NCBI GenBank assembly: GCA_016200325.1
Contig: JACQEZ010000020.1
Location: 248,001-312,000 of the forward strand
Reading direction: 5' to 3'
From: Candidatus Manganitrophaceae bacterium
GTDB taxonomy: Bacteria > Nitrospirota > Nitrospiria > SBBL01 > Manganitrophaceae
Length of the DNA: 64,000 bases
Of this stretch, positions 6,614-49,563 are shown piece by piece. Made by a program: the position numbers and the translations under genes. A model generated the notes under the pieces. The model was not told the origin of the DNA, did not search any database, and saw only the letters and a list, made by a program, of their open reading frames with translations. Position 1 is the stretch's first letter; each line of letters opens with the position of its first letter.

Positions 6614-7090
6614 TTATCTTCTCGGATGGACCATGTCGATTAGATGCTGGAGGGTTCCGAGAATGACTTCAAGATTCTCCCGCGCGGGGCCGGCGCTGCC
6701 GGGAAGGTTGATGATCAGGGTGTCCTTTCGGATGGCGGCGGTGGCCCGAGAGATAATCGCCTTCTTGGTTTTTTTCTGAAAGACCTCGGTCCGCATGATG
6801 TCGGCGATCCCCGGCACCTCCCGGTCCATCGCGGCGCGGGTCGCGTCGGGGGTTCGATCTTGTTTGCCGAGGCCGGAGCCGCCGGCGGTGAGGATCACAT
6901 CGGGCTTGATCTGGTCGCTCCACTCGATCAGCTTGTCGCGGACCTTCTCTTCCTCCGCCGTAATAACCTCTTTTACCACCACCTCGCCCCCCCCTTCGGT
7001 GATCATCCGGGCGATTTCATTGGTCACCCGGTCTTCACCGGGGAGGATCCCCCGCTCTTTGATCGACAAAATGCCTGCCGTAAACCCCAT
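6614..7090 (-). CDS. mog: Molybdopterin adenylyltransferase Mog/MoaB
   Basis: A 158-residue MoCF-domain protein of normal length for MogA/MoaB. The MPT-binding loop reads TAGGSGLGKQDRTPDAT near residues 68-84 and NLPGSAGPARENLE near 128-141. Family reaction: MPT plus ATP gives adenylylated MPT, the step before molybdate insertion by MoeA. It is the first gene of a minus-strand group with the zinc-ribbon and oxidoreductase genes; a MoeA-like gene lies divergently. Confidence 0.88.
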   Translation of the reverse strand: MGFTAGILSIKERGILPGEDRVTNEIARMITEGGGEVVVKEVITAEEEKVRDKLIEWSDQIKPDVILTAGGSGLGKQDRTPDATRAAMDREVPGIADIMRTEVFQKKTKKAIISRATAAIRKDTLIINLPGSAGPARENLEVILGTLQHLIDMVHPRR

Positions 7091-7301
7091 GATTCCTCCT
7101 TGTCAACGTTTCTAAATATAAAGGAATCGAACCAAAAAACCAACTGGTTTTTGTTCCGCTCTCCACCGGTTCACTCTGAAGGCCCGCTTTCACCGGCAGG
7201 TCGGTATTACATCGGTCAACTGCGAAAGGAACGTTGCAAAGATCTTGAATCGGCGAGGGGTTCATGTTATGTATGGAGGGCCTTAATTCAAGAGGGATGA
7301 A

Positions 7302-46187: not shown

Positions 46188-46216
46188 TTGACAATCATTT
46201 TTCGATGTGGTAAAAA
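46188..46216 (+). promoter_or_regulatory. Promoter of the nadE leader
   Basis: TTGACA (46188-46193), 17-bp spacer, TAAAAA (46211-46216). The predicted leader is about 125 nt and carries two hairpins. Confidence 0.65.
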
Positions 46217-46251
46217 TCTACACAATCGTTTCCAAGTCAAACCTTGAAGAC

Positions 46252-46291
46252 AATGGCGTCTTCTCCACCAGGAGAAGACGCCATTTTTTTT
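46252..46291 (+). terminator. Intrinsic terminator in the nadE leader (attenuator or sRNA end)
   Basis: AATGGCGTCTTCTCC/GGAGAAGACGCCATT, a perfect 15-bp stem with loop ACCA and eight T (46284-46291). It stands between the promoter and nadE, so it either attenuates nadE-glnA or ends a separate RNA of about 70 nt. Confidence 0.8.
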
Positions 46292-46304
46292 GGGACAATG
46301 CTGT

Positions 46305-46340
46305 CCTTGCAACCCTCCTGTTGCAAGGCATTTTATTTTT
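46305..46340 (+). promoter_or_regulatory. Second leader hairpin with CCTCCT loop
   Basis: CCTTGCAAC-CCTCCT-GTTGCAAGG (46305-46328), a perfect 9-bp stem, then CATTTTATTTTT. The loop CCUCCU is the exact anti-Shine-Dalgarno sequence and lies just before the GGGGGTGA ribosome site of nadE, so it might pair with it or with ribosome-related RNA. Confidence 0.5.
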
Positions 46341-46348
46341 GGGGGTGA

Positions 46349-48157
46349 ATGCGGAACCTTCGGATCGCTCTGGCACAGATGAATAGCACCGTCGGTGATC
46401 TCACAGGGAATATACGGAAGATCACGGACGCCGTTGAGAAGGCGCGAGAGAACAAGGTCGATCTGATTGCCTTTCCGGAGCTGGCCATTACAGGGTACCC
46501 CCCTGAAGACCTGCTCCTAAAACCGCAGTTCATCGAGGCAAATCTCAAGGCGCTGCATGAGGTCGCAAAGAAATGCAAGGGATTGACCGCGATTGTCGGT
46601 TTTGTCGATCGGGAGGAAGATATTTACAACGCGGCCGCCGTCATTCATGATGGCGTGATCCGTTTTACGTATCACAAGTGCTATCTCCCGAACTATGGGG
46701 TCTTTGATGAAAACCGCTACTTTCAGGCAGGCACCACCGCCCCGGTCTTTCTGCTGAACGATATTACGATCGGCGTCAACATCTGCGAAGATATGTGGTA
46801 TCCGGAAGGCCCGACGTATGCCCAAGCGCTGGGGGGCGGCGCCGAGGTGATTGTGAATATCAACGCCTCCCCTTATCATGCCGGGAAAGGGGTTCTCCGG
46901 GAGGAGATGCTGGCGACCCGTGCGAGGGACAATGCGGTTATTGTCGCCCACGTCAACCTAATCGGGGGACAAGACGAACTGATCTTCGATGGGGGGAGCT
47001 TCGTCTTCAATGAGCGTGGCGAACTGCTGGCGAGGGCGAAGCAGTTTCGGGAATCATTCATCACTCTAGACCTCTCGGTCGATTCCGTTTTTAGAGCGCG
47101 GCTCCATGATCCACGGCGACGTAAAGAAAAGTTAGAGCAGGCCTTTCCGCAGGTTGAACGGTACCACTTTGGGAATCTGAAGCACGAGGGGAAGCGGAGA
47201 GCGATTACGCCGACATTGGAAGATCACCTTCCTCGGCTGGATGAGATGTATCAGGCGCTCGTTCTCGGTTTGTCCGATTATGTCGACAAAAACGGCTTTA
47301 AAAAAGGGGTGATCGGCCTTTCAGGGGGCATCGACTCCGCATTGACTGCGGCGATTGCCGTCGATGCCCTGGGGAAGGAAAATGTCATCGGTGTTTTTAT
47401 GCCTTCCCGTTATACGTCGCAGGAGAGCAGGGAGGATACGGAAAACCTCGCCCATCATTTGGGAGTCCGGCTCATTACCCTCTCGATCGAGCCCCCCTTT
47501 CAGTCCTATCTCAATTTACTCGCTCCGGAATTTCAAGATAATCCGGCCGATATTACCGAGGAGAACCTTCAATCGCGGATCCGGGGGAACTTGCTGATGG
47601 CTCTCTCAAACAAGTTCGGGTGGCTGGTTCTCACGACGGGAAATAAGAGCGAAATGAGCGTCGGCTACGCCACCTTGTATGGAGATATGGCCGGCGGGTT
47701 CGCGGTCATCAAAGATGTTTGGAAGACCTTGGTCTATGAACTGGCGCTTGAACGGAACAAAAAGGGAAAGCCGGTTATTCCGGAACGGATCCTGACCCGT
47801 CCGCCGACCGCCGAACTTCGCCCGAACCAGACCGATCAGGATTCTCTTCCTCCCTACGAAGTGCTCGATCCGATCTTAAAAGCATATGTCGAAGAAGACA
47901 AGTCGTTTGATGAAATTGTTTCGATGGGTTTCGACCCGGCGGTTATTGCCAAAGTGATTGGCTTGGTCGATTTGTCGGAGTTTAAAAGAAGGCAGGCCCC
48001 CCTTGGGATCAAATTGACCCCACGCGCACTGGGAAAGGATCGGAGAATACCGATCACCAACAAATATCGTAGTTTTTATCAGGCAAGCAAGACAAGCGGT
48101 TCGGACGGAAAGCCGGACGGAAAAAACAGAGGAAAAAGGGGAAAGGAGAAGCTATGA
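46349..48157 (+). CDS. nadE: Glutamine-dependent NAD+ synthetase
   Basis: 602 residues, the two-domain type. N-terminal nitrilase/glutaminase domain with Glu in [15 protein letters not shown], Lys in [10 protein letters not shown] and the Cys in [12 protein letters not shown]-terminal synthetase with the P-loop [10 protein letters not shown] and [21 protein letters not shown]. It amidates nicotinic acid adenine dinucleotide using ammonia from glutamine. The C-terminus ends in a Lys-rich tail. glnA overlaps its stop (ATGA), pairing an ammonia user with the glutamine maker. Confidence 0.94.
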
Positions 48158-49563
48158 CACCGAAAGAGGTATTAGAGTTCGCAAAGAAAAACAAGGTCGA
48201 GATGGTCGATTTTAAGTTCGTCGACTTTCTCGGTTCCTGGCAGCATTTCGGGACGCCGATCGGCGAGTTTACAGAGAAGATCTTTGAAGAGGGATCGGGC
48301 TTCGACGGGTCGAGCATCCGGGGATGGCAGGCAATCAACGAGAGCGACATGCTGGCCGTGCCTGATCCGAACTCGGCTATCATGGATCCGTTCACGAAGA
48401 TCCCGACCCTATCGGTCGTCTGTAATATCAAGGACCCGATCCGGAATGAGCCTTACCCGAGAGACCCCCGCTATATCGCGCAGAAAGCGGAGGCCTACCT
48501 GAAGGCATCTGGAATCGGCGACACCGCCTACTTCGGACCCGAGGCTGAATTTTTTATCTTCGACAACATCCGGTTCGATCAGAACAGCTACAGCAGCTAC
48601 TTCTTCATCGACTCGGAGGAGGGGATCTGGAACTCCGGTAAGGCGGAAGGCAATCTCGGCTATAAACCGCGCCACAAAGAAGGGTACTTCCCCGTCCCTC
48701 CCATCGATAGCCAAGAAGATATCCGTGCGGAAATGTGCCGCGAGATGGAAAAGGCCGGGATCATCGTCGAAAAACAGCACCACGAGGTTGCGACGGCGGG
48801 ACAGGCCGAGATCGACATGCGGTTCGATTCTCTCGTCGTCATGGCCGATAAACTGATGCTCTACAAGTATATCGTTAAGAACGTCGCGAAGCGGTATGGG
48901 AAAACGGTCACCTTCATGCCGAAGCCGCTCTTCGGCGACAACGGCTCGGGAATGCATACGCATCAGAGCATCTGGAAGAAGGGGAAGCCGCTTTTTGCCG
49001 GGGATGAATATGCCGGCGTCAGCAAGATGTGTCTCTATTACATCGGCGGGATTTTAAAGCATGCCCATGCTTTGGCGGCATTGACCAATCCGACGACCAA
49101 CTCTTACAAGCGGCTGACCCCCGGTTTTGAAGCGCCGGTCAACCTCGCCTATTCCAGCCGCAACCGGAGTGCATCGATCCGAATTCCGATGTACTCGAAC
49201 AACCCGAAGGCAAAGCGGATCGAGGTCCGGTTTCCCGATCCCGGCTGCAATCCATATTTTGCTTTCTCCGCGATGCTGCTGGCCGGTCTTGACGGAATTG
49301 AGAATAAGATCGATCCGGGAGATGCTATGGATAAGGATCTCTATGAGTTGAAGGGGAAGGAAGCGGCCGCCATCCGGAAGATGCCGGGAAGCCTCGACGA
49401 GGCGCTGGCGGCATTGGAGGCAGACCATGCCTTCTTGCTGAAGGGAAATGTCTTCAGTGAAGATATCCTCCAGACCTGGATGGAATATAAAAAGAACAAA
49501 GAGGTCGATACGATGCGGCTGCGGCCCCATCCTTATGAGTTCTTCCTCTACTACGACATCTAA
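48154..49563 (+). CDS. glnA: Glutamine synthetase type I
   Basis: 469 residues, normal GSI length. Motifs: [48 protein letters not shown] and the adenylylation-site Tyr397 in DKDLYELKG, so activity is probably controlled by GlnE-type adenylylation. It makes glutamine from glutamate and ammonia. Translationally coupled to nadE; a strong terminator follows. Confidence 0.96.

Follow-up and report, generated by a model that had tools for sequence, protein, structure and literature searches.

The leader of nadE in the window, by which we mean the whole analysed stretch of 64,000 nucleotides from a Candidatus Manganitrophaceae bacterium, is, with a probability of about 0.87 as judged from sequence, an ANTAR-controlled transcription attenuator of a nadE-glnA operon. 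The cell's sole ANTAR-type RNA-binding protein, presumably by binding the leader RNA, very probably overrides a stop signal that stands 5' of both genes. The switch type is known, but its occurrence in this bacterial group, its NAD-synthetase/glutamine-synthetase target and the position of the terminator between two loops are new. The first gene, nadE (46349-48157, plus strand), encodes a glutamine-dependent NAD synthetase with nitrilase and NAD synthase domains, and glnA (48154-49563, plus strand), which overlaps it by ATGA, encodes a glutamine synthetase. The two genes probably share one operon, and their adjacency is also found in the genus and in relatives of the order.

All elements of this leader lie on the plus strand. 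Inspection of the sequence shows a sigma-70-type promoter (46188-46216), in which the -35 box TTGACA (46188-46193) is separated by 17 nt from a TAAAAA -10 box preceded by TGG, so that the transcript is expected to start near 46223. Four congeners possess identical boxes with identical 17-nt spacing, and the promoter is thus kept within the genus. The intrinsic terminator T1 (46252-46291) consists of a perfect 15-bp stem, AATGGCGTCTTCTCC-ACCA-GGAGAAGACGCCATT (46252-46285), and eight T (46284-46291). It is followed by H2 (46305-46339), a perfect 9-bp stem, CCTTGCAAC-CCTCCT-GTTGCAAGG (46305-46328), with the T-rich tail ATTTTATTTTT, and by the ribosome-binding site GGGGGTG (46340-46346), the GGGGG of which stands 5' of the nadE ATG at 46349. 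A terminator scan flags both T1 and H2. The fold of the 138-nt leader is 5 SD better than expected from dinucleotide shuffling, a value reached by none of 200 shuffles. An earlier note on this DNA had described the promoter, both stems and the GGGGG site, all of which are present as claimed, and its proposal of a transcription attenuator between promoter and nadE is borne out. In the part of the leader 5' of P1 (46223-46245), a CAAG-UCAAAC-CUUG hairpin is possible; the sister family f5 carries at the matching place a hairpin that varies in stem sequence and loops.

The element is explained by two hexaloop hairpins, P1 and P2, which had gone unnoticed in that first reading. P1 (46246-46263), GAAGAC-AAUGGC-GUCUUC, is formed by pairing of the six bases directly 5' of the terminator (GAAGAC, 46246-46251) with the GUCUUC of the T1 5' arm. 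It shares 12 bases with this arm, and hence the antiterminator hairpin and the intrinsic terminator exclude each other, as is required of an ANTAR target. P2 (46293-46306), GGAC-AAUGCU-GUCC, begins right after the T-tract and overlaps H2 by two bases. Both loops comprise six bases, the first being A and the fourth G (A1 and G4), which is the ANTAR-target signature, and both are closed by AC/GU, that is, by C-G and A-U pairs. A1 and G4 are preserved among the congeners aligned, and in work on EutV, mutation of A1, of G4 or of the closing pairs reduced induction or eliminated it (PMC3369931).

Conservation reaches beyond the genus for the first of the two stems only. A set of 12 leaders, drawn from two families of the order, retains T1 together with its 5' GAAGAC at a mean column identity of 85%, although the NadE proteins of these relatives are only 59-82% identical to the one described here. 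All P1 pairs are preserved in the same leaders, two varying from A-U to G-U, and the near-invariant P1/T1 stems yield no covariation themselves. The H2 stem is preserved within the genus only, where its T-rich tail reads TTTTATTTT in all five congeners aligned. Covariation is found in family f6, which we take from our data to be Nitrospira-like and in which both hexaloops stand 5' of one terminator, with the terminator 5' arm shared by P2 (the classical order). In the P1 and P2 stems of f6, 11 cells show double changes, compared with 1.8 in shuffled data, and every slid register falls short of the true one. Sister family f5 has mostly a GAUGGC loop, in which A1 is lost, lacks P2 and carries the other hairpin with varied loops upstream. 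In f5, a single-hexaloop terminator also stands 5' of a gene that by eye resembles a sigma-54 activator (L180, L182, L183, L184, L186), and a porin-like gene follows in several of these loci. At another locus (L095, G046:C8), two tandem hexaloop-terminator modules stand 5' of a lipoprotein-like gene.

Within the 4.2 Mb genome, the dual-hexaloop pattern has a single match, which is this leader, and the reversed control of the pattern has none. As the covariance model R1 includes the window's own sequence, its score at this site is partly circular; model R2, which was built from f6 sequences only, also ranks the site first genome-wide (E 1.9e-4), followed by a runner-up inside a gene (E 0.055). 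This runner-up was rejected as another ANTAR site, the coding region resembling ispG by eye, and two other matches to the single-hexaloop pattern were discarded because no terminator stem was visible by eye. Among 80 nadE loci of other phyla, no leader gave a credible model match.

Exactly one ANTAR protein is encoded in the genome, on a separate contig. A genome search identified this protein of 419 residues with GAF-GAF-ANTAR architecture by PF03861 (E 4.6e-23). Among solved structures, the best E-value is that of 6wsh, an entry of 192 aa recorded as a response regulator, which we take to be EutV; the solved NasR and AmiR also match. The hexaloop-contact residues R142, K143, K149, E160, M172, N173 and R175 of EutV are retained, while K147 is changed to R, Y164 to F, R168 to Q and R177 to T. 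Across 296 genomes of the phylum, in which the motif was defined as an R1 match at E <= 1e-3, the ANTAR gene occurs in 58 of the 61 motif genomes versus 118 of 296 overall (Fisher 1.6e-24, a value that ignores relatedness). Family f6 shows the motif in 46 of 48 ANTAR-positive versus 1 of 17 listed ANTAR-negative genomes, and nine ANTAR-negative f6 nadE leaders that were read directly contain no hexaloop hairpins. Gene linkage adds to this co-occurrence, as the ANTAR gene lies immediately upstream of nadE in families f10 and f13 and in some f6 genomes. In one f6 genome (L150, G056:C4), the ANTAR gene, a porin-like gene (called by eye), an ABC transporter of the branched-chain/urea type, urease genes and nadE are clustered, and dual elements precede both the porin-like gene and nadE. 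A clear dual-hexaloop with terminator was also seen beside urease genes in genome G194 (L151, G194:C17, about 6900-7260, minus strand), where an ANTAR gene was not detected in the genome and no nadE lies within the 15 kb read; this element is possibly a relic, or the missing gene reflects an assembly gap. Chance seems to account for the two model matches in the ANTAR-negative genomes G008 and G191, which fall within long reading frames or run across them.

Folded alone, T1 has -27.0 and P1 -7.3 kcal/mol, and folding of successive transcript lengths indicates that P1 is stable until about 46270 and that T1 prevails by 46281. As T1 is far more stable and displaces P1, P1 needs help to persist. 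Without active ANTAR protein, P1 would form first and then be displaced by T1, and transcription would end at about 46291. An active GAF-GAF-ANTAR protein would bind the P1 hexaloop while T1 is still incomplete, a short time window for stabilization, and the protein-held P1 would occupy the T1 5' arm, so that the polymerase could continue into nadE-glnA. Being made after T1, P2 comes too late to influence T1 in the same round of transcription; the ANTAR protein may then bind P2 and thereby weaken H2, which is probably a weak second, back-up terminator. The regulated genes suggest nitrogen status as the signal, and a nitrogen-related cue sensed by the GAF domains would induce the operon. The earlier note had suggested that the leader may sense the NAD or glutamine state; the nitrogen and glutamine theme is sensible, given that glnA overlaps the end of nadE, but sensing directly by the RNA is not upheld, as the evidence points to the ANTAR protein.

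Several observations speak against the ANTAR reading. The linker between P1 and P2 amounts to 29 nt (46264-46292) and includes the 3' half of T1, so that the short linker of classical tandem hexaloops is not found here. In eut leaders the hexaloop linkers measure 5-12 nt (PMC3369931), those of curated ANTAR RNAs 2-25 nt (PMC8164766), and 20 nt added to the linker abolished EutV antitermination in vitro (PMC8934654). A canonical recruitment hexaloop 5' of P1 is also missing, no conserved A1/G4 hexaloop being present there in the genus or in f5; the hairpin that f5 has at this place was rejected as a candidate, as its loops are not of the A1/G4 type. Further points are the f5 loop without A1, the absence of P2 from f5 and the element kept in ANTAR-negative G194. 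However, the 2022 structure paper redefined the minimal binding motif as a single hexaloop, which makes the nested layout plausible. Given the long linker, we regard the leader as a variant that acts like an ANTAR antiterminator and not as a standard member of the class. Tentatively, at somewhat less than even odds, it may be a two-step leader, in which the hexaloop of P1 guards T1 and that of P2 guards H2, in each case the hairpin next downstream, without a separate recruitment hairpin; one terminator-embedded hexaloop would then suffice, and f5 would have kept the first step only.

As alternative to protein-mediated antitermination, T1 could be a constitutive attenuator, or the end of a short sRNA that starts at the nadE promoter, and regulated antitermination would then play no part. 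T1 alone is indeed a strong terminator from which a short RNA is expected, but the GAAGAC arm is unneeded for termination and is nevertheless preserved in the 12 leaders, and the element has disappeared entirely from ANTAR-less f6 genomes; we think that this explanation is improbable. As for the sRNA of about 70 nt that had been proposed, T1 should release an RNA of roughly 69 nt whenever it works, while nothing supports a function of this RNA as an sRNA.

Even less probable, in our view, is a ligand-binding riboswitch for NAD, NAD precursors or glutamine. The site 5' of nadE-glnA and the attenuator layout would suit it, but the element tracks the presence of the ANTAR gene, and its conserved part consists of two small hairpins and a terminator and includes nothing that resembles an aptamer core. 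Rfam covariance models gave no riboswitch match up to E 10, neither the NAD+ riboswitch nor other riboswitches nor a T-box, in agreement with the earlier statement that no known riboswitch class is recognizable. We consider it similarly far-fetched that H2 serves as a translational switch, its CCUCCU loop pairing with the GGGGG ribosome site and blocking initiation, as the earlier note had suggested. A CCUCC-GGGGG duplex would contribute about -7.9 kcal/mol and the spacing permits a pseudoknot; however, the CCTCCT loop is found in this species only, and the four congeners aligned have different H2 loops and yet retain a GGAG ribosome site.

The proposed ANTAR-controlled attenuator resembles the eut leaders of Enterococcus faecalis, which are controlled by EutV/EutW, in its A1/G4 hexaloops with AC/GU closing pairs (PMC3369931, PMC8934654) and in the hexaloop arm that doubles as an arm of the terminator stem. 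Its protein likewise resembles EutV in mostly identical RNA-contact residues, but it is a GAF-GAF-ANTAR protein and not a REC-ANTAR response regulator. In eut leaders both hexaloops precede the terminator, whereas here the terminator lies between them. ANTAR-type antitermination of nitrogen genes would be shared with NasR at the Klebsiella nasF leader and AmiR at the Pseudomonas amiE leader, which differ in sensor domains and target genes and from which the present leader is set apart by its nested layout. The system is also in line with predicted ANTAR regulons of nitrogen metabolism, including glutamine synthase enzymes and urea/ammonium transporters (PMC3369931). In the literature searched, neither an NAD synthetase as ANTAR target nor ANTAR RNAs in Nitrospira were found, and as of 2012, GAF-ANTAR proteins were described as uncharacterised.

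The layout bears on a question of the ANTAR field, namely whether antitermination really requires two hexaloops, and at which spacing. It also exposes an ANTAR regulon, in which, in one relative, a porin gene and nadE stand beside urea-uptake and urease genes. In a branch of the class Nitrospiria that is mostly uncultured, the synthesis of NAD and glutamine gains a testable regulator.
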